Below are positions 45,829-58,145 of a stretch of 64,000 nt of DNA, piece after piece. The translations under genes were made by a program, and so were the position numbers. The first letter of the stretch is position 1; the number at the start of each line of letters is the position of its first letter. The notes beneath the pieces were generated by a model. It worked only from the letters and a program-made list of their open reading frames with translations. It was not told the origin of the DNA and did not search any database. Origin of the DNA: Roseimaritima ulvae (GTDB lineage: Bacteria > Planctomycetota > Planctomycetia > Pirellulales > Pirellulaceae); assembly GCF_008065135.1 (NCBI RefSeq), contig NZ_CP042914.1, positions 2,046,001 through 2,110,000 on the forward strand. Direction: 5' to 3'.

Positions 45829-47208
45829 TTAGCGATTGGGAGCTGAATAGGTTTGTTGTTGCTCAACGGCGTTCTGGTATTCTCGCATCACTTTGCGCGA
45901 GCGTGACCAGTTGCGATCGTCTTCGATGTTGAGGGCTTGCAGGGTATTGGCGTCGGAGTTGCGTACCAACTCGGGCACCACGACCAACACGTTATTATCC
46001 TTGCATTTGACCGCCAGGACTCGCAATTCCTTTGCGTTATCTTCCAGTAGCTGTTTGGCCTGCTGGACCTGGCCAGCATCCCGCATGGCGGTCGCCTCGC
46101 GATTGCGTTCGGTGATGATTTGCACGCTGCAGAAGGCTTTGGTTTCCCAGTCCGTGGCGCGGCTGACCTCGTCGGGCGAAGTACTGAAGTGCACGCTGAC
46201 CCGATCGTGCAACTTGGCGGCGCGGTCGCGGATCAGATCATTAAAAGCCACCGTCACGTCGGCCAGCGGCAAGGGGCGTTTGGCGGCCTTGGCATCCACT
46301 TCCACCTCGACGATGAAGTAACGTTGTTGGCCGGCGTACAGTTGAGCCAGGGGAATCTGCACACGACGACCTTCGATCCGCGCGTGGGTGTTCAGTACTC
46401 GCACCGGACGCACGCCGGCGCCCAAATCGACGCGGATCTCCACGGAGTTGGCGATCACACTCATCAAGTCATCAAATTCTCGATTGAAAACTTCCACCAG
46501 ATAATCGGCGTCTTCGACAAACACATGGTTGCCCGAAGCGGCCGAGGCCAGTTGACTCATCAGGTCTTCGTTATAGCTGGCGCCCAGCCCCAAGGTGCTG
46601 ACGCTGATCCCCTCTTTGATCAACGAGCGTCCCAGGCTTTCCAGGTCGCCGGGTGATGAGGGGCCCACGTTGGCGTGGCCATCGGATAACAGAATCACCC
46701 GGTTGACACTATCGTCGCGAAGAAATTTACGCACCTCGGCAGCCCCGCGGCTGACACCGGCGAACAACGCCGTGCCGCCGCCGGCCCGAATGCTTTGAAT
46801 TTTTTGGATAATGGTTGCACGGTCGGTGGCCTTGGTGCTGGGCACCAGCACTTCCACGCCGGCGTTGTACAGCACGACCGAAACGATGTCCTGGTCGTTC
46901 AGTCGTTGCACCGCCGCGATCGCCGCCTGCTTGGCCTGTTCGATTTTGTGCCCCTGCATCGAGCCACTGCGATCGATCACGAGCGTGACATTCACCGGGG
47001 CTCGGAGGCGCTGCTCGGTGGGCTGGATCCCATCCAGAGCGATGCGGACGTGATTAATAGCCTGCGTTTCCGCCAGCATCGTGGGGTTGGCGACCCCAAC
47101 TTTCAGCTGAACCGCCGGGGCATCGGCGGCCAGGGTGGCCGATGTGCCGGCACTGCTCAGCACGACTGACAGGATGGTGGCGATTGCCAAGGGGGCGTTT
47201 GCGTTCAA
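45829..47208 (-). CDS. Secreted von Willebrand factor A domain protein
   Basis: The 459-residue precursor has a signal peptide (1-28, ...TSATLAAD). A VWA domain starts near 74 with an intact MIDAS motif (DRSGSM: Asp79, Ser81, Ser83), followed by GGGTALFAG and LLSDGHANVG. The layout with a beta-sandwich after the VWA domain and a helical C-terminus resembles YfbK/inter-alpha-trypsin-like secreted VWA proteins. It should bind a protein ligand through a metal ion outside the cytoplasm. It is divergent from the kinase/FtsK-type operon across 204 bp, and a part in that system is possible but unproven. Confidence 0.9.
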   Translation of the reverse strand: MNANAPLAIATILSVVLSSAGTSATLAADAPAVQLKVGVANPTMLAETQAINHVRIALDGIQPTEQRLRAPVNVTLVIDRSGSMQGHKIEQAKQAAIAAVQRLNDQDIVSVVLYNAGVEVLVPSTKATDRATIIQKIQSIRAGGGTALFAGVSRGAAEVRKFLRDDSVNRVILLSDGHANVGPSSPGDLESLGRSLIKEGISVSTLGLGASYNEDLMSQLASAASGNHVFVEDADYLVEVFNREFDDLMSVIANSVEIRVDLGAGVRPVRVLNTHARIEGRRVQIPLAQLYAGQQRYFIVEVEVDAKAAKRPLPLADVTVAFNDLIRDRAAKLHDRVSVHFSTSPDEVSRATDWETKAFCSVQIITERNREATAMRDAGQVQQAKQLLEDNAKELRVLAVKCKDNNVLVVVPELVRNSDANTLQALNIEDDRNWSRSRKVMREYQNAVEQQQTYSAPNR

Positions 47209-47324
47209 GGTTTGGGGCTTTCAATGTGCGGGATCCTACGAACCGACTAATCCCTTTCATCAGAGCAAAACCGCTGAAATCAATGGTGGGAATGAGGTCA
47301 AAACAATGCAAAAATAATGTAAAT

Positions 47325-47354
47325 TTGACCCGCGCCAGGGTTTTGAACCACAAT
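47325..47354 (+). promoter_or_regulatory. Candidate sigma-70-type promoter of the ESX-like operon
   Basis: TTGACC (47325-47330) and CACAAT (47349-47354) are separated by 18 bp and lie 58 bp before the first gene's start. The -35 matches 5 of 6 consensus bases and the -10 matches 4 of 6. It is in the AT-rich centre of the divergent region. Confidence 0.3.
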
Positions 47355-47412
47355 AGGATACTGTCCGGCATGCTTGATGCCTTCCCTTTTCGCAGCCTCC
47401 GGCGGGATCCGT

Positions 47413-48306
47413 ATGACGTCCGACGCCCACCGCAAACCGACCACCCCAAAATTGGGGCCGCTGGAAGGCGGTCCTTGGCGGCCGGTTCAGCCCGACGAAC
47501 TGTTGCGTCGCGACCCGCCCAGTGAGCCCGCCGAAGCGGCACCGCCTGCCGTCAATCTGCAGCGGCAGCAAGAACTGGAACGCTACCTGCAACCGCGGCC
47601 GGCCGATGTGGACGCGTATCGGGAACTAGCGGAAATCTACCGCCAGCTGGACCGGCCGCTCGATGCGCGACGGACGTTGCAGAAGGGATTGGAAATCCAT
47701 CCCGACGAACCGAAGTTGCTGTGGCAGTTTGAGGAAGCCTGTCTGGCGCAGTCTCTGCACCAACTCCGCGAAGTCACCGCGTTGACCAAACGTCTGGGCA
47801 CGCCGGAAGCTCAACGCGAACTGGATCGCTCGCGAACCGATTGGGCTTGCCGCCGCGTGGACGTCTGCCGGGCCAGGCTGAAACGCGATCCGCAGAACAT
47901 GCAATTGCGCGTCGTCCTGGCCGAAGCCTTGCGCGACATGGGGTTGTTTGAAGCGGCCATCGAAGCGGCCGAAGTCGTCGCCGGACACGATGCCTTGGCC
48001 CCCACCGCTTTCCTGATCCGTGGGCAATGCTACCAAGCCTTAGGAGAATCGATGAAGGCCTTGCCTTTGTTCCGTGCCGCGGCTCTCCGTCGCGCCACGC
48101 CAGCACCGCCACGGCTGCGGATCGTGGCGCTGCGAGCCGCAATGGAACTGGCCGAGCAACAGGGTTTGATGCTGTCGCTACAACGGTACGAGCGTTTTCT
48201 AAAAATTGCCGAAGCCGAACTGCAAACCGCCGCCTCCACAGCCCCGTCCTCTTCCGCCCCGAATGTTGAATCGTCCGAGCTGTCTTCGGAAGGAAGCCAA
48301 GCATGA
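47413..48306 (+). CDS. TPR-repeat protein, first gene of the ESX-like operon
   Basis: From ATG 47413 the protein has 297 residues; an ATG at 47377 would add 12. An N-terminal Pro-rich segment (KPTTPKLGPLEGGPWRPV) precedes helices with TPR-like spacing: YRELAEIYRQLDRPLDARRT, VVLAEALRDMGLFEAAIEAA and FLIRGQCYQALGESMKALPL. No signal peptide or membrane helix is present, so it is probably a cytoplasmic scaffold or chaperone. Its last codons overlap the WXG100-like gene by 4 bp (ATGA), indicating translational coupling. The family has no established function that I recognise. Confidence 0.8.
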   Translation: MTSDAHRKPTTPKLGPLEGGPWRPVQPDELLRRDPPSEPAEAAPPAVNLQRQQELERYLQPRPADVDAYRELAEIYRQLDRPLDARRTLQKGLEIHPDEPKLLWQFEEACLAQSLHQLREVTALTKRLGTPEAQRELDRSRTDWACRRVDVCRARLKRDPQNMQLRVVLAEALRDMGLFEAAIEAAEVVAGHDALAPTAFLIRGQCYQALGESMKALPLFRAAALRRATPAPPRLRIVALRAAMELAEQQGLMLSLQRYERFLKIAEAELQTAASTAPSSSAPNVESSELSSEGSQA

Positions 48307-48572
48307 ATCAAGCCATCGCCGATCCCGAAGAGCTGCGGCGTTTTGCCGGACATCTGCGAGCCTATGCCGAAGAGATGAAGCAGCGGAACACGGCGTTGGC
48401 TAGTCACATGAATGAACTGGAGCAGACCTGGCGCGACGACCAGCAACGCAAGTTCGCCGCCGAGTTTGAGCAACAGATGCGGCAACTCTCGCGGCTGCTG
48501 TCGGCCACCGAACAACACGTGCCCTACTTGCTTCGTAAGGCCGATCAGATCGAAACCTATTTACGTGGTTGA
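48303..48572 (+). CDS. WXG100-like small helical protein (ESX substrate candidate A)
   Basis: The 89-residue protein has two predicted helices joined at a central turn QTWRDDQQRKF, where Trp43, Asp45 and Phe51 sit where WXG100 (ESAT-6-like) proteins have W-x-G and an aromatic. Length and lack of a signal peptide fit the family. It overlaps the upstream TPR gene by 4 bp and is 6 bp from the next. An EccC-like ATPase is encoded four genes into the operon, supporting a type VII-like role. The WRD in place of WxG is a deviation, so this is a family-level inference. Confidence 0.7.
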   Translation: MNQAIADPEELRRFAGHLRAYAEEMKQRNTALASHMNELEQTWRDDQQRKFAAEFEQQMRQLSRLLSATEQHVPYLLRKADQIETYLRG

Positions 48573-48578
48573 TATTTA

Positions 48579-49070
48579 ATGCAGAGTGATGTCCGCGATG
48601 TCGATGTGCTGCTGGATTTGTTAAACGGGTTGGCCCGCTTGGGCGAAGGCTTCGAAGCCGCCGTGGAAGAAATTCGAGCCATCCTGTCTCGCGTGGATGA
48701 ATGGATCCGCGTGGACCGTCCGGCGTATTGGCAGCAGCAATTGCGATTGTCCGAGCAAGCCTTGAATTCGGCCTTGGACTACCTGCAGCAGAAGCGAAGT
48801 ACCACGCGGCCGGGCGATCGACCGCCAGCCAGCGAGGCGCAAAAACGCGTTGCGGTGGCGAAGCAAAGAGTCAAACTGTGCCAGGAAAAACATCAGGCCT
48901 GTCGGCGGCATCTGCTGCGTTTGGAGGGCGTGATCAATGCGATGGCGGGTCCGTTGACCGAAATCGACGAAGCCGCCGGCAATGACTTGCCACGCGCCAT
49001 GGCCGAGTTAAAGCAACTGATCAAAATCCTGGACGCCTACGGCGGCCCCCGACCGGATGCTTCCTCATGA
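48579..49070 (+). CDS. Helical protein of unknown function in the ESX-like operon
   Basis: The 163-residue protein is mostly alpha-helical with likely coiled coils (VEEIRAILSRVDEWI; RVAVAKQRVKLCQEKHQACRR). It contains a YWQQQLRLSEQAL segment and a basic Pro/Arg-rich linker at about 74-86. There is no signal peptide or membrane helix. It overlaps the next gene by 4 bp. It could be a chaperone or an additional helical substrate. No family is recognised. Confidence 0.75.
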   Translation: MQSDVRDVDVLLDLLNGLARLGEGFEAAVEEIRAILSRVDEWIRVDRPAYWQQQLRLSEQALNSALDYLQQKRSTTRPGDRPPASEAQKRVAVAKQRVKLCQEKHQACRRHLLRLEGVINAMAGPLTEIDEAAGNDLPRAMAELKQLIKILDAYGGPRPDASS

Positions 49071-49318
49071 AACAATCGTTGGGAAAACTGACCGATTGCG
49101 AAAATCGTTTCCGCCGCAGTTGGCATGACTTTACGCGGTTATGGAAGTCCGTCAAAGAACAGTGGCGTGACGCCCGTCGGCAACAGTTCGAAAAGGAACA
49201 TCTCAGCCGACTGCCCGCTTCGCTGAATCGGTTGTCCGCCGCCACCGTGGAATTGCGGCAGGCCATGCAAGATGCGGAACGAGAATTAAGTGATCAGCAC
49301 CAAGAGTACGGAACATGA
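49067..49318 (+). CDS. Second small WRD-motif helical protein (ESX substrate candidate B)
   Basis: The 83-residue helical protein has a central EQWRDARRQQFEKEHL in which Trp33, Asp35 and Phe41 repeat the WRDxxxxxF spacing of the 89-residue protein two genes upstream. The two could form a heterodimer as EsxA/EsxB do. It overlaps both neighbours by 4 bp (ATGA). It lacks a signal peptide. Homology to WXG100 proteins is inferred from size, helical pattern and motif only. Confidence 0.65.
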   Translation: MKQSLGKLTDCENRFRRSWHDFTRLWKSVKEQWRDARRQQFEKEHLSRLPASLNRLSAATVELRQAMQDAERELSDQHQEYGT

Positions 49319-52300
49319 CCAATACCCGACCGGCCCCCGTCGGTCTGCTTTCCCCGCGACGGCAGCAAACGCTGTTGCAGGCGATGCAGCACCGCTGTCA
49401 AAACGCGCAGCAGCAACGCGAGCAATTGCAAACGCGTTTGCAACAGGCCGGCAAACTCTTGGAACAACAACTGCAGTCGCAGCGACAACAAACCCTGGAC
49501 CGCTGCCGCGCCGACCGCCAGACCTTGTTACAAGCCTGGGACCAAGCCGACGAGCAGAAAGTTTCGCACTACGAAAACGAAACCTTGCGGCTGCGGCAGG
49601 AACTAAATCGCTTGGCCAGCAAGTTCCGGCAAGCTCGAAAAGAAGAACATGCGGTTGTGTTTCGCAAAGTCCAAGCCCGCTGCGCCGCGGTCCAGAAACA
49701 ATACGAAACGCGCAAAGATCAGCCGGCCGAACAACGCCAGAAAGAAGAAAGTCAGTTGGCCACCGCGCTGGCTGCGGTGCAAACAACCATGGAGGAGGTT
49801 CATGAAGTTTCCGCGCGGCGGTTAAATGGGTTGCCCGACGTAGCGCCCCAACCTAAGGAAGACTGGGAAGCATCGCAGGAAAGCGTGTCGGAAGCCATCG
49901 AAACGATCGAATTGGCTAATCGCCAGATCCGCGAAACCTTGCGCGAGTTGTACAGCGGAACGCCTTCTAAACTGGTCGATACGTTTTGGATCCTGCCGTC
50001 CTGGGCCGCCATCTTTGTTGTGGTGTGGTCGATCGGGGCGCTGTTTCTAGCTCAAGATAATCTGCTGATCGCCCTGTTGGCTGGGCTGGGCGTGGCCTTG
50101 GTGTTGTTTCTCAGCGTGCTGGGAATTTTACAGATTCCCCTTCGTCGCCAAACCCGTGCGATCTATCCCCGAGCGGAACATCTGCTGGCGATGGCGCATC
50201 GCGCCGTCCACCGCGGCAAGACCATCGCCGCGGCCAAAGCCAAAGATTTTTCCGCTGACCTGCTGAAGACTCGCGACTTTCATCTGCAAGCCGCCGAGCG
50301 TTGGAAACGAGAACATCTGGAATCGATCGACCAAACCATCGCCGCCAAAGAGCAGGCGATGCGGAAAGGTCTGGAACAGAAACTGGCTGAATTGGAGGAG
50401 ACGTTCAGCAAAGAAATCAGCGCCACGGACGCCCAGATGCACGATAAAGCCGAGGCGTTGGCCGAAGCGATCCGGACTACGCTGGCGAACGTGGATGCCT
50501 CCGCGGCCGCCCGCCGCCAAGAACAACAGCAACAAGACGCCATCGCCATCGCGGAACAGGAAGCCCGCTTTATGACCGCCATCGAGCGGGGGCTGAGACG
50601 CTTCGGGCAGGCCGACCAGCACGTCCACCAACGCTTCCCCGCTTGGCAGCGCGACCCGGAGTGTAGCTCTCATCCCACACTCGATTATCTGCCGGTGGGA
50701 GAGTTCGCCATTCGGCAAACGCTCACGCAGACACTTGGCGAACACGCGCAGAGTCTCGACGAACATCTGCAAACGGCGAACGAGGGGGCGCCGCCCAAGC
50801 AAACGCTACCCGACGCCCTGCCGCTGGTGCTGCATCGCCGCTTGCATGCGGGAATCGTCATTGATTGTCCCTCGCCGCTGATCGAAACCGCCGTCAGCTT
50901 GCTTCAAGGCATGCTGTGGCGAGCGTTGACCGGGGTCACACCCGGACGCTGCAAACTAACGTTGCTCGATCCTCTGGGACGCGGACAACATTTCGCCGGC
51001 TTGATCGCGTTGGCTGATTTCGACCCCGCTCTGGTGGGCCACCGCGTGTGGACATCGCCGGCACAGATTGAAGCCCGGCTGACGGAAATGACCCAGCACA
51101 ACGAAGACGTGCTGCAGTCCTGCCTCCGCGACCAGTACGCCACCATCGAAGACTACAACCGTGTCGCCGGTTCGCTGGCCGAACCCTACCGAGTGTTGGC
51201 CGCGGTGGGGCTGCCCGCCGGGGTCACGCAGGAGTCGGCCAGCCACCTTCGTGCGCTGGTCGATAGCGCACGGCGGTGTGGCAATTTTCTGCTGTTGGTG
51301 AACGATCCCAATCAGCCCTGGCCCGCCGAAATGCCCGACTTGAACGATCCCCGCTTGCTGCGGTTAAAGGTCCAGGATGATGGAAGCTTGGTAGCGTCGG
51401 ATGCGTTCTTCGAAGACCTGCTGTTGCAGCCGGTCACACCCCCGCCCGCGGCGATTCGCACCCAGTGGACCGAAGCGATCGGCACGGCCGCTCTGGCCGC
51501 CGCCCGGATCGAGATTCCCTTGGCACAGATCTTTCCAGAGTCGCTGGCCGGTCAAGCCGATTCGTCGAGCGGATTGTCGATCCCCATCGGCAGCCAGGGA
51601 GCGAACCGCGCGCTGTCCTTGGCTTTGGGCGAAGGCGTCCGTCAACATGTCCTGATCGCCGGGAAAACCGGTTCCGGTAAAAGTACGCTGCTGCACACCA
51701 TCATTACCGCCGGAGCGAAACTGTACACGCCCGATGAGCTGCAGTTCTATCTGTTGGATTTTAAGAAAGGCGTCGAGTTCCAGGTCTACGCCGAACATCC
51801 CTTGCCGCATGCCCGGGTGATTGGGATTGAAAGTGAACGCGAATTCGGACGCAGTGTGTTGCAGCGATTGGATGCCGAGCTGCAAACGCGTGGGGAAATG
51901 TTTCGCGAAGCGGGCGTCCAGGAAATCGGAGACTATCGTCGCCAAACCAATCACACTCTGCCCCGAATTCTGCTGGTGGTCGACGAATTCCAAGAGTTGT
52001 TTGTCCGCGATGATCGCATCGCCGGCGACTGTGCGATGGTTCTCGATCGGTTGGTCCGACAGGGGCGTTCGTTTGGGATTCATATCGTGTTGAGCAGTCA
52101 GTCGTTGGCCGGGGCGTACTCCCTGCCGCGAGCGACGTTGGGACAGATGGCCGTCCGCATCGCGTTGCAATCGAGCGAATCGGATGCGGCCTTGATCTTG
52201 GGCGACGACAACCCGGCGGCACGGTTGATCAACCGTCCCGGCGAAGCGATTTACAACGATGCCAGCGGATTGATCGAAGGCAATCAGCCCTTCCAAGTCG

Positions 52301-53256
52301 CTTGGTTGTCGGCCAGCGAACAACGCGAGATCTTGCAGCAGGTCGCCCAGCGGGATGCCGCGTCGGTGCAATCGTTGGATCCGCCGGTGGTGTTTGCGGG
52401 CAACCGCCCGGCGGTCTGGACGGCCGCGCTGGCCGAAGCGGCGCTGAAAGAAAAGCCGGAATCCGGCGATCTGATCCGTGGCCTGTTGGGGGAATCGGTG
52501 GAAATTGGTCCGCCCACGACCTTGACTTTACGGCCCGGTTCGGGACGCAACGTGCTGACTGTGGCGCCGCCGGAAACAACCCTACCGTTGGTCGCTTCGC
52601 TATTGTCGACACTGACCGTCGATGGTCAGCGACAACATGGCCAAGCTCCAGAGATCCGAGTCCTGGACGGAGCCCGCTCGGTTCAGGAAGGCCTCGTGCC
52701 GTTGGCGGATTGGCTGGCGGCGTCTGGCGTGGAAGTGCAGCCGGTCAAACCTCGCGACTGCGAAGCCGAGATCCTGCGGTTGAAAGAAACCGTCGATGCT
52801 CGGCTGGCGGCCGATGATGGCGAACAGGCTCCGCAGCGGCCGATCATTGTGGTCATCAGCCCCTTGGAACGGTTCCGCGAACTGCGGCAAACCGACAGCT
52901 ACAGTTTCTCCTTGGATGATTCCGGTGGCGGCGCCCCGGCGGCCCTGCAGGCTCTGCTGCGAGACGGCCCCCAAGTGTCGGTGCACACAATCCTGTGCTG
53001 CCAATCGGCCGAAACCCTGACCCGTTGGTTGCCGCGATCGGTGCACCACGATCTGGAATTGCGGCTGCTGGGACGGATGAGCGGCACCGATTCGGCCAAC
53101 CTGATCGACACGCCGGAAGCCTCGGATTTGACGGCTGCTACAATGTTAATGTACGACGACGCGGAAGGCCGCTTAACAAAATTCCGGATTTGTGATCAGC
53201 CGGCCGCCGCCGACGTCGCCGCCTGGATCCAACCGCGACACGATGAATCTGCTTGA
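49315..53256 (+). CDS. Membrane-anchored FtsK/SpoIIIE-type ATPase (EccC-like)
   Basis: The 1,313-residue protein starts with a long Gln-rich coiled coil (about 1-215), then two membrane helices at 225-275, then another coiled coil (about 300-420). An FtsK/SpoIIIE motor domain follows with Walker A GKTGSGKST (783-791) and Walker B ILLVVDEFQ with Asp890-Glu891, then LVRQGRSFGIHIVLSSQ, typical of translocases. The last 290 residues look like a second motor domain without a P-loop lysine (RPGSGRNVLTVAPP; PIIVVISPLE), reminiscent of the inactive second and third domains of EccC. It overlaps the preceding gene by 4 bp. The coiled-coil N-terminus is unlike EccC, and there is no gamma DNA-binding domain as in FtsK, so protein rather than DNA is the likely cargo. 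Confidence 0.88.
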   Translation: MTNTRPAPVGLLSPRRQQTLLQAMQHRCQNAQQQREQLQTRLQQAGKLLEQQLQSQRQQTLDRCRADRQTLLQAWDQADEQKVSHYENETLRLRQELNRLASKFRQARKEEHAVVFRKVQARCAAVQKQYETRKDQPAEQRQKEESQLATALAAVQTTMEEVHEVSARRLNGLPDVAPQPKEDWEASQESVSEAIETIELANRQIRETLRELYSGTPSKLVDTFWILPSWAAIFVVVWSIGALFLAQDNLLIALLAGLGVALVLFLSVLGILQIPLRRQTRAIYPRAEHLLAMAHRAVHRGKTIAAAKAKDFSADLLKTRDFHLQAAERWKREHLESIDQTIAAKEQAMRKGLEQKLAELEETFSKEISATDAQMHDKAEALAEAIRTTLANVDASAAARRQEQQQQDAIAIAEQEARFMTAIERGLRRFGQADQHVHQRFPAWQRDPECSSHPTLDYLPVGEFAIRQTLTQTLGEHAQSLDEHLQTANEGAPPKQTLPDALPLVLHRRLHAGIVIDCPSPLIETAVSLLQGMLWRALTGVTPGRCKLTLLDPLGRGQHFAGLIALADFDPALVGHRVWTSPAQIEARLTEMTQHNEDVLQSCLRDQYATIEDYNRVAGSLAEPYRVLAAVGLPAGVTQESASHLRALVDSARRCGNFLLLVNDPNQPWPAEMPDLNDPRLLRLKVQDDGSLVASDAFFEDLLLQPVTPPPAAIRTQWTEAIGTAALAAARIEIPLAQIFPESLAGQADSSSGLSIPIGSQGANRALSLALGEGVRQHVLIAGKTGSGKSTLLHTIITAGAKLYTPDELQFYLLDFKKGVEFQVYAEHPLPHARVIGIESEREFGRSVLQRLDAELQTRGEMFREAGVQEIGDYRRQTNHTLPRILLVVDEFQELFVRDDRIAGDCAMVLDRLVRQGRSFGIHIVLSSQSLAGAYSLPRATLGQMAVRIALQSSESDAALILGDDNPAARLINRPGEAIYNDASGLIEGNQPFQVAWLSASEQREILQQVAQRDAASVQSLDPPVVFAGNRPAVWTAALAEAALKEKPESGDLIRGLLGESVEIGPPTTLTLRPGSGRNVLTVAPPETTLPLVASLLSTLTVDGQRQHGQAPEIRVLDGARSVQEGLVPLADWLAASGVEVQPVKPRDCEAEILRLKETVDARLAADDGEQAPQRPIIVVISPLERFRELRQTDSYSFSLDDSGGGAPAALQALLRDGPQVSVHTILCCQSAETLTRWLPRSVHHDLELRLLGRMSGTDSANLIDTPEASDLTAATMLMYDDAEGRLTKFRICDQPAAADVAAWIQPRHDESA

Positions 53257-53271
53257 TGGTGAATCTGCTAG

Positions 53272-54879
53272 ATGGTCTCCCACCCCAATTCGTCTTCCGC
53301 CGATAACTCGAATATTCAATCCGAGTCGCCGGCGAGCCACAGCCAAGTCGAATTTGCCGGAGAATTGAAACGCAGCGGGCTGCTGACCCACGGCCAGTTT
53401 GTCGACGCCGTGACGCTTTGCAAACAGCACGTCGAACCGGCTCATACGGCTCGGCAGTTGGTCCAGCAGGGGCTGCTGACCTCCTTTCAAGCCAGTCAGA
53501 TTTTGTTGGGGCAGGGACACTGGTTGGCCCTGGACCAGTACCGCGTGCTGCGACCGTTAAGCGATGGCGGCGTGGGGCGGGTGTATTTGGGCTACGACAC
53601 CCAGAATCGTCAGAAGGTGGCCATCAAAATGTTGCGGGAAAGCCGCCGCAACAATCCCCGCGCGGTGCAGCGTTTTCGCGTCGAGGCTCACGCTCTGTTG
53701 TCGCTGCAGCACAAGAATCTGCTCCACGGTCTGGCTTATGAGAAAGTCGACCCACAGCGTCGACATCCAGCCTATCTGGTCACCGATTTTGTCGAAGGCC
53801 CCAACCTCCGCGAATTGCTGGCGATCCGCCGGCAACTGCCCTGGGAGGTGGTTTGTGACATGATCGCCCAAGCCGCCTCGGGCTTGCAGCATGCTCATGA
53901 CAATCGGTTTGTGCACCGCGACATCAAACCCAGCAACCTGATGGCCCTGGCGTCGGGGCGTGTCCTGGTGATCGACTTTGGGATGGTGCGTTATTGTGGC
54001 GACGACCCGGATTGGTTCTCGCCGCCACCGGTTAAATTGGGCTTTGCGGATTACTTGGCGCCCGAGCAATTGGCTGACCGCGAACACGTCGATGGCCGCG
54101 CCGATATTTATAGTCTCGGTTGCACGATGTTTTATCTGCTGACCGGACGGGCACCGATCAAGTTCGCGCCCCGCAATGCGCCACCGCCCTCGTTGTGCCA
54201 ACACCGCAGCGACGCGCCGCCTGAACTGGAACAGGTGGTCCACCGGATGCTGGCCGCCGAGCCCGAGGATCGGTACCAGAGCATGGAGGAGGTGCATGCC
54301 GAACTGCAGCCGCTGGCCCGCCGCGCCTCGTTGATCATCGACTACCCGGCCCTATTGCGGGCTCGTGCAGCCACGGTCCGCGCGGCCGAGCCAACCGCTC
54401 CGGAAATTCGACAGATCACGACGCCCACCGTGCGGCGGCCCGCCGATCAGACGGCCCCGGGCGCCGTGCCCGCCCGCACCGAGCAGCCGGCGGCCGACGA
54501 AGTGCCGTCGCTGGCCGATTCGCCTTTGCAACGCTTGGAGCGTCTGGTCACCGATCTCTCGCAACGGCTGATCGATTCGCAGCAAGCTTTGGCGATTGCC
54601 GAAGCCAAAATCGCCAACGACGCGCGGCTGGCCGCCGAGCAACTGGCGGCGTGGCGAGCCGAGAAAGAAGACCTGTTGAAGCAATTAGAAGCGAGCGAAA
54701 CGGCTCGCCGCGAAGCCGAGCAGCAGCGGCAGACGCTATTGGAACAAATCGACAAAACCACCGACCACGCCGTCGCCATGGCCGATGCCGTGGCCGCGCT
54801 GGAGCACCAGTTGGCCGAGCAAAGCGAAGACCTAAGTACGCTGAAAAAAGCCTACGATGACGCTCAGGAATCCACATAG
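53272..54879 (+). CDS. Ser/Thr protein kinase with C-terminal coiled coil
   Basis: The 535-residue protein has an N-terminal helical region typical of planctomycete kinases (RQLVQQGLLTSFQASQILLG, 61-80). The kinase domain (about 90-350) has Lys119 (VAIKML), catalytic HRDIKPSN (215-222, Asp217), DFG (235-237) and APEQL. The glycine loop reads LSDGGVGRVY. A Pro/Ala/Thr linker and a coiled coil (about 425-530) end the protein. No membrane segment is seen, unlike many bacterial PknB-type kinases. It starts 15 bp after the FtsK-type gene and closes the operon, so it probably regulates the secretion machine by phosphorylation. Confidence 0.93.
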   Translation: MVSHPNSSSADNSNIQSESPASHSQVEFAGELKRSGLLTHGQFVDAVTLCKQHVEPAHTARQLVQQGLLTSFQASQILLGQGHWLALDQYRVLRPLSDGGVGRVYLGYDTQNRQKVAIKMLRESRRNNPRAVQRFRVEAHALLSLQHKNLLHGLAYEKVDPQRRHPAYLVTDFVEGPNLRELLAIRRQLPWEVVCDMIAQAASGLQHAHDNRFVHRDIKPSNLMALASGRVLVIDFGMVRYCGDDPDWFSPPPVKLGFADYLAPEQLADREHVDGRADIYSLGCTMFYLLTGRAPIKFAPRNAPPPSLCQHRSDAPPELEQVVHRMLAAEPEDRYQSMEEVHAELQPLARRASLIIDYPALLRARAATVRAAEPTAPEIRQITTPTVRRPADQTAPGAVPARTEQPAADEVPSLADSPLQRLERLVTDLSQRLIDSQQALAIAEAKIANDARLAAEQLAAWRAEKEDLLKQLEASETARREAEQQRQTLLEQIDKTTDHAVAMADAVAALEHQLAEQSEDLSTLKKAYDDAQEST

Positions 54880-57353: not shown

Positions 57354-57489
57354 CGAGGGCTCCTGAGACGAGAGAATGCAAACGGAATTCAACGTGTCGA
57401 TTGTCGACGAAGGCGTGGCCAAGGTCAACGTCGGTTTCGTCGCCCCAAAACCGGGCTCCGCCCGCAGCATGTCGCCCGTCCGCGCGGGG

Positions 57490-58145
57490 ACAGACTCTGC
57501 GCGTTTTGTCTTCCGGCTAGGCCCGGAGGGCCGATATAGCGCCTGCCGGGAGTGTGAACCCCCGGATCGAAGACAGCAAAAGCTGCCAGGCCCGGAGGGC
57601 CGATATAGTTTTGCGGATGCGCGGCACTGCCCAGACCCCTATTGTGTCGGCCCTCCGGGCCTTTGTTTTGTTGCGGGCGGGTACCGGGGCTTCACAGCCC
57701 CGGCAGGGGCTATGCCGGCCCTCCGGGCCTAAGGCGTCGAGGGCCGGGCGGCCCGTCCCCGCACGGGGACAGTCTCTGCGCGTTTTGGGCTGCGCGGGGA
57801 CAGACCCTGCGCGTTTTGTCTTCCGGCTAGGCCCGGAGGGCCGATATAGCCCCTGCCGGGAGTGTGAACCCCCGGATCGAAGACAGCAAAAGCTGCCAGG
57901 CCCGGAGGGCCGACACAGTTCTGCGGATGCGCGGCACTGCCCAGCCCCCTATTGTGTCGGCCCTCCGGGCCTTTGTGTTGTTGCGGGCGGGTACCGGGGC
58001 TTCACAGCCCCGGCAGGGGCTATGCCGGCCCTCCGGGCCTAAGGCGTCGAAGGCCGGGCCGCCCGTCCCCGCGCGGGGACAGTCTCTGCGCGTTTTGCCC
58101 TGCGCGTTTTGTTTTGCCGCGCAGGGACAGACCCTGCGCGTTTTG
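57490..58145. repeat. 310-bp tandem duplication of GC-rich palindromic sequence
   Basis: The same sequence recurs with a constant offset of 310 bp (for example 'gcgttttgtcttccggctag' at 57501 and 57811; 'agtctctgcgcgttttg' at about 57770 and 58081), giving two copies plus a partial third end. Each copy contains several arms of GGCCCGGAGGGCCGA/TCGGCCCTCCGGGCC and CACGGGGACAG-like segments. Plus-strand open frames across it are repetitive and not credible. It fills the proA-rpoC gap. Confidence 0.9.

Follow-up and report, generated by a model that had tools for sequence, protein, structure and literature searches.

Garrett et al. (2024) sort type VII secretion systems (T7SSs) into T7SSa, T7SSb, and T7SSc to T7SSj, found in Gram-positive phyla; a ubiquitin-like EsaB/YukD protein belongs to most variants, T7SSd being without it (PMC11217815). 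A table footnote in Zhang et al. (2012) lists planctomycetes and other lineages with a solo WXG protein and a distinct YueA-like ATPase, which has three HerA/FtsK domains of which the middle one is active, among apparently mobile versions of the T7SS (PMC3482391). TerY-P or Type III-A CoCoNuT systems combine an EssC-like ATPase, active in its central domain, with one WXG100 and one WXG100-like protein (PMC11090510, which credits a stand-alone form to Anantharaman 2012). Helicobacter HP0062, a solved hairpin (PMC3397514), is treated together with HP0066 in PMC3397514 and in section 17 of PMC4978471. Here, we analyze a locus of Roseimaritima ulvae (8.2-Mb genome on one contig) within a stretch of 64,000 nucleotides (NZ_CP042914.1, positions 2,046,001 to 2,110,000; the window, whose own numbering is used below), in which an original prediction made from the letters alone had seen a kinase-linked, type VII-like operon of six genes, g1 to g6. 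The unit kept by evolution consists of four of them, g2 to g5. This WXG100/ATPase module is very probably one functional unit related to the T7SS, and our best reading, to which we give a probability of a little under 0.6, is a minimal pump of the inner membrane that exports WXG100-like proteins.

A g5 search and profiles of g2, g3, and g4 were run against 117 genomes of the order (105 genera, the window genome included) and recovered g5 in 76 genomes, g2 in 75, g3 in 74, and g4 in 75. Presence of g5 corresponds to scores of at least 337 bits; the next genome, G014, reached 95.6 bits through a partial match and was counted as lacking the gene. All 75 genomes with g2 carry g5. The four parts occur together in 74 of the 117 genomes, none occurs in 41, and two occur in each of 2 incomplete genomes, namely, G065 (82% complete; g5 and g2) and G106 (73% complete; g5 and g4). 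The 117 genomes are related rather than independent, so we give no p-value. Presence and absence of the module were both seen within families f1, f2, f10, and f14. At the level of loci, 57 orthologous stretches were compared (L032 to L088; L089 to L091 are not among them). The arrangement g2-g3-g4-g5 is intact in 45, g2 is missing from L034, only g4-g5 are found in six, and only g5 in five; several loci reach a contig end shortly after g5 (L034 within about 1 kb). Every source genome of the 11 loci reduced to g4-g5 or g5 has a WXG100 match elsewhere, and no such match was found in G014, G021, and G022, which are without the system. In five of these 11 split genomes (G048, G016, G057, G009, and G061), g1-g2-g3 are grouped at a second place, the parts being more scattered or interrupted by contig ends in the others; in genome G047, the four parts are spread over four contigs. 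This survival of the set despite dispersal is the strongest evidence in the analysis. The original prediction that the genes are kept together in relatives thus holds for g2 to g5 and fails for all six as one unit.

The six co-directional open reading frames (ORFs) span 47374-54879. The short junctions described by the original prediction were confirmed, with 4-bp overlaps at g1/g2, g3/g4, and g4/g5 and gaps of 6 nt at g2/g3 and 15 nt at g5/g6; its start at 47209 had to be moved to the beginning of the g1 ORF. The features, with the basis of each assignment in parentheses, are the following.

47374-48306, plus strand: g1, TPR protein, accessory of a sub-lineage (Pfam TPR); likely ATG at 47413 (alignment)
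48303-48572, plus strand: g2, WXG100 protein of 89 amino acids, core (Pfam PF06013, E 6.5e-10)
48429-48437, plus strand: g2 motif W43-R44-D45 (alignment)
48579-49070, plus strand: g3, predicted two-helix protein of 163 amino acids, core; candidate cargo slot (AlphaFold2 [AF2])
49067-49318, plus strand: g4, small WxD protein of 83 amino acids, core (alignment and profile)
49163-49171, plus strand: g4 motif W33-x-D35 (alignment)
49315-53256, plus strand: g5, EccC/EssC-like membrane ATPase of 1313 amino acids, core (NCBIfam, AF2, Foldseek)
49990-50118, plus strand: g5 membrane hairpin, residues ~226-268 (Kyte-Doolittle)
51661-51684, plus strand: g5 Walker A, residues 783-790 GKTGSGKS, domain D1 (alignment)
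51982-51987, plus strand: g5 Walker B, D890-E891, domain D1 (alignment)
53272-54879, plus strand: g6, Ser/Thr kinase, local neighbor outside the conserved module (Pfam Pkinase, 1.5e-37)

In blastp clustering, gene families other than g2 to g5 are shared by at most 8 of 61 loci. The g1 profile matched in 4 of the 57 orthologous loci and, with scores of at least 165 bits, in 17 of the 117 genomes, 16 of which have the system; g1 is a marker or accessory of one sub-lineage. The remaining one, G014, combines g1 with no more of the ATPase than an N-terminal piece, a 347-amino-acid ORF at L089 (7964-9004, minus strand) matching the N-terminal part in a genome without g2 to g4. As for the kinase, the proposal that g6 phosphorylates the machine as part of a six-gene regulated operon draws on its co-directional position just behind g5, on retention of this arrangement in the congener G001 (L032), and on the occurrence of kinases in several T7SS variants (PMC11217815, in the part cited). 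Among the loci examined, g6 was found to follow g5 immediately in the window and in this congener alone (1 of the 57 orthologous loci); no g6-like kinase was found in that position in the other 56, some of which end within about 1 kb, and kinase genes in other places around the loci occur sporadically. Since g6 is not conserved, we reject the kinase-linked operon, which we regard as very improbable. A defense assignment via g6 was likewise dropped, its PADLOC matches looking like general kinase matches.

Profile and fold place g5 nearer to EccC/EssC than to FtsK, in line with the original prediction of an EccC-like ATPase. The top NCBIfam models were EccCa (1e-34) and EssC (1e-27), both under their curated cutoffs (120 versus 509 bits), and the FtsK equivalog was not listed for g5 at E≤1, whereas the genome's own FtsK, used as a control, scored 425 bits with that model. 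In phmmer, g5 reached 144.8 bits with T. curvata EccC versus 35 with FtsK. The AF2 model of residues 448 to 1313 (predicted local distance difference test score [pLDDT] 91.2) contains three ATPase-like domains, and Foldseek returned EccC (4nh0) first at 1.5e-29, ahead of FtsK (3.4e-16; TM-score by target length, 0.61). Neither the P-loop G783-S790 nor D890-E891 varies among 30 aligned orthologues, in agreement with the intact P-loop and Asp890 originally proposed (alignments A1, 46/47 g2; A2, 53/54 g4; A3, 44/47 g3; A4, 30/61 g5; those with the window added to prepared references, A5, 70/80, and A6, 50/52). The Walker A pattern G4xGK[ST] occurs in D1 of 70 of 71 sequences and in none of the 71 for D0 or D2, and the Walker B hydrophobic-DE pattern in D1 of all 71. 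The degenerate second domain was therefore read correctly, and a further degenerate one, D0, precedes the active D1. The alternative that g5 is an FtsK-type DNA translocase with acquired small helical neighbors takes up the Pfam assignment of g5 to FtsK_SpoIIIE, the rank of FtsK motors as the next solved folds, and the failure of the EssC model to separate the two. It is hardly credible in view of the NCBIfam and phmmer scores, the own-FtsK control, the WXG100 partners, and a tree of D1 (31 rows) in which eight planctomycete FtsKs and four other ATPases form a separate starred group (98/97, 12 rows), and FtsK identity was rejected on the scores, the control, and the tree. In the same tree, the g5 family branches with the ATPase of locus L090 (support 93/98, not starred, with a long-branch warning from the program that includes L090). 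The membrane hairpin of g5 has hydropathy peaks of 2.07 and 2.85, and 157 of the 159 locus entries whose g5 ORF exceeds 1200 amino acids have a hydrophobic segment starting at residue 150 to 380, a count that includes redundant loci and a membrane call that is one of hydropathy. No hydrophobic hairpin occurs in the L090 ATPase; the Helicobacter and Rhodococcus plasmid relatives have peaks of 1.71 and 1.62, barely above the threshold. A known defense system was also considered for g5 and discarded, as its PADLOC matches (SspH, mad8, HerA, and ZorA) fall on coils or on the P-loop domain.

The WXG100-like protein of the original prediction, g2, scores 39.6 bits with Pfam WXG100, above the cutoff of 27.3, and 29.3 bits with the NCBIfam model, below its cutoff of 44.85. 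The best solved matches of its profile were HP0062 entries (3fx7, E 5.5e-12), followed by EsxB and others. W43-R44-D45 is present in all 46 aligned orthologues, the motif being WRD rather than WxG, and 74 of the 75 genomes with g2 have a single copy. A second small WXG-like protein is indeed kept alongside: W33 and D35 of g4 are invariant in 53 of 53 aligned sequences. Besides g4 itself, the g4 profile found mainly g2 ORFs among 7212 ORFs, with 45 g2-labeled rows and no unlabeled ORF at E<0.01 and 8 unlabeled ones at E<1; one of these 45 rows is the own g4 of L081, L074 is counted twice, and the g2 ORFs are one family and hence not independent. This profile had been rebuilt without g2 (alignment A2), an earlier version having included a g2 from L090. 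Against solved structures, g4 matched Staphylococcus aureus EsxA (2.3e-4) less well than its best hit, a designed spike construct (1.1e-4), so coil bias possibly lies behind these matches. The AF2 model of g3 predicts two helices of about 70 residues each (8-74 and 85-155; pLDDT 91.5), which, together with the match of g2 to the solved hairpin, agrees with the helical hairpins originally expected. The g3 profile gave nothing below 0.02 against the PDB; its weak extra matches (E<1) among the 7212 ORFs were 30 g2 rows and one other. We infer that g2, g3, and g4 are all WXG100-like hairpins.

Distant relatives suggest what the middle slot, that of g3, may hold. On a plasmid of Helicobacter sp. 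NHP19-012 (L243, 5104-9506), a WXG100-like gene, a WHH nuclease gene, a SUKH gene, a small gene, and the gene of the FtsK-like ATPase stand in a row. The WXG100-like protein scores 24 bits with Pfam, below the cutoff, and 51 bits with the g2 profile; the middle genes encode a protein of 340 amino acids whose nuclease domain is of the WHH/colicin type, an immunity protein of the SUKH type, and a product of 77 amino acids. The arrangement resembles an effector cassette belonging to this class, and g3 occupies the position that corresponds to the nuclease gene. Among 29 proteins compared, the Helicobacter nuclease protein matched the g2 profile weakly (5e-5) and the g3 profile not at all (E 7). 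Genome G024 and Caballeronia show the order WXG100, 436-amino-acid protein, small gene(s), ATPase, surrounded by VWA, PP2C, kinase, and helicase or AAA genes. In G024, this is a second, TerY-P-type cluster beside a stand-alone module in the same genome (L090, 363-13167), comprising two VWA genes, WXG100, proteins of 436 and 113 amino acids, a hairpin-less ATPase, PP2C, a kinase, and a helicase-like AAA gene. A long tail containing DSGW was seen in 9 g3 proteins (L074, L087, L134, L141, L143, L147, L152, L159, and L178) of a set of 120 that includes redundant loci. Pfam searches with five of these gave Imm33-like above the cutoff in two and below it in one, a weak Imm33 match (0.027) in one, and nothing in one. 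In some distant orthologues, the helical protein appears to be fused to an immunity-type domain. By analogy with these loci, g3 may be a passenger or the carrier of one.

Beyond the order, a phylum-wide draw gave 49 of 343 genomes matching g5 at 166 bits or more, the next best reaching 75. The best 80 matches listed include Rhodopirellula, Rubripirellula, Isosphaeraceae, Gemmatales, and Phycisphaerae; among them, a Rhodopirellula baltica record (L103) carries at least g4-g5. Records titled Verrucomicrobiales, Alphaproteobacteria, and Anaerolineae may be misbinned and support no claim about other phyla. The g5 tree (59 rows) has 15 family-label changes for 16 labels, which is the minimum, so no transfer between families is required; it covers one order in one short search, leaves 19 of 56 inner branches open, and omits L089 and L091. 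Together with the absence of the whole set from 41 genomes, this fits vertical inheritance of the module and its loss as a unit.

The export reading draws on the family and fold of g2 and g5, the co-retention of the four genes, the hydrophobic hairpin, the g3 model, and the parallels in the middle slot. In such a pump, g5 would be a hexameric motor in the inner membrane on which g2 and g4 would dock as a targeting pair. The g3 protein would be the passenger or passenger carrier, at the position taken by a nuclease gene in the Helicobacter plasmid locus, and ATP hydrolysis in D1 would drive the helical complex into the periplasm, an additional partner being needed to cross the outer membrane. 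The TPR protein g1 would serve as a clade-specific cytosolic helper, perhaps a chaperone. More tentatively, at somewhat less than even odds, the module could be an obligate, vertically inherited four-protein exporter in a diderm phylum, functioning in the absence of the known EccB/D/E or EsaA/EssB partners and with g3 as a built-in passenger. With the same reserve, that passenger may consist of bare helices in the window, carry an Imm33-like domain in some relatives, and be replaced by a nuclease and its immunity gene in Helicobacter.

Several results weigh against export. As regards the motor, the genome's own FtsK outscores g5 with the NCBIfam EssC model (108 versus 96 bits), which shows that this model alone cannot separate them. 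The EccC match to the g5 model has a TM-score of only 0.40, and the D1 tree leaves EccC/EssC versus FtsK undecided, so that, on the original question of whether the ATPase clusters with DNA translocases, the fold favored EccC and the tree did not separate them. As regards the small proteins, the hhalign values for g4 with g2 (15%) and g3 with g2 (23%) are weak, and a structure search with the g3 model gave no solved match at E≤0.001, only generic coiled coils. The relatives on Rhodococcus and Deinococcus plasmids have their small genes behind the ATPase, and the slot order is therefore not universal. A C-terminal YxxxD/E motif is the general type VII export signal. Within the last 30 residues, it was found in none of 46 g2 (shuffles expect 11.9), none of 53 g4 (1.5), and none of 44 g3 proteins (1.6). 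No LXG protein was found in 14 genomes (control positive), and the only PF06013 match in the window genome is g2 itself. EssB was missing from all 12 genomes searched, with a positive control, which bears out one of the partner absences originally claimed; for EccB, the count was likewise 0 of 12 in a search without a working control. YukD (PF08817) is absent from the window genome, and the family matched in two of 12 genomes (G068 and G076), distant from the system. The anatomy resembles a type VII system; because no YxxxD/E signal was found and YukD is absent from the window genome, we do not file the module under the characterized T7SS types.

The main alternative to a secretion system is a membrane-anchored conflict or stress machine, in line with the TerY-P/CoCoNuT relatives, in which WXG-like adaptors or sensors would load or gate an ATPase that pumps something else, such as DNA or peptides. 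Neither an export signal nor an LXG effector was found, the presence of just one g2 in 74 of 75 genomes suggests that its role is internal and fixed, and the D1 tree groups the family with the TerY-P-type ATPase of L090 (at the support and with the warning given above), a locus that includes VWA, PP2C, and kinase genes. However, a hydrophobic hairpin marks 157 of 159 entries here and is lacking in L090, CoCoNuT ATPases are described as being without membrane domains (PMC11090510, in the part cited), and any cluster other than g2 to g5 is shared by at most 8 of 61 loci. We consider such a machine less likely, and keep to the export pump as the better account.

Only near neighbors of the locus were inspected. 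On the opposite strand, a VWA gene lies upstream of g1 to g6 and fliM downstream. The VWA-domain gene (45829-47208, minus strand) is divergent from g1, and its start resembles a signal peptide by eye; VWA genes also flank TerY-P relatives, and no VWA family recurs beside the planctomycete module. Farther on, 57482-58106 holds two tandem copies of a 310-bp unit that are 96% alike, a 33-nt piece of which appears again at 58116; the pair adjoins a gene read by eye as proA.

Surveys place type VII secretion in Gram-positive phyla (PMC11217815, in the part cited). If a four-gene version is stably inherited in a phylum with a Gram-negative cell plan, it would be a minimal natural machine that lets one ask what EccC/EssC and WXG100 can do alone. 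It would also bear on how WXG100 cargo meets an outer membrane and on how Gram-positive systems gained their extra parts. Rhodopirellula baltica is among the named carriers of at least g4-g5, which makes tests in cultured planctomycetes conceivable.

Compared with known systems, and as far as the cited portions of the sources go, the module shares an EccC/EssC-type membrane ATPase and a WXG100 protein with T7SSa, T7SSb, and T7SSc to T7SSj, whereas these belong to Gram-positive phyla and have further components, mostly a ubiquitin-like protein, and LXG or RHS candidate substrates. Among solved structures, HP0062 fits the g2 profile best; it also shows the WRD motif, and an FtsK/SpoIIIE gene is clustered with it. 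The Helicobacter NHP19-012 plasmid has a WXG100-like protein and an ATPase that match the g2 and g5 profiles but carries nuclease and SUKH genes in the middle of its locus. With CoCoNuT/TerY-P systems, the module has in common an ATPase active only in its central domain, a WXG100 pair, and a coiled-coil protein, in an order similar to that of G024 (L090) and Caballeronia (L241); their ATPases are without membrane domains and lie amid VWA, PP2C, kinase, and other genes, whereas the planctomycete module stands alone. The class of Zhang et al. (2012) is closest, with planctomycetes, a solo WXG protein, and three ATPase domains of which the middle one is active; its footnote mentions neither a membrane anchor nor g3/g4, and the class was called mobile, whereas the g5 tree here needs no transfer between families. 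The membrane-anchored, four-part, all-or-none form was not found in the cited passages of PMC3482391, PMC11090510, PMC4978471, PMC3397514, and PMC11217815, and Anantharaman 2012 may describe more. The kind is thus already known in print; what is new is the membrane anchor, the all-or-none retention, the absence of any sign of between-family transfer, and the place of g3 in the slot that is filled by a nuclease and an immunity gene on a Helicobacter plasmid.

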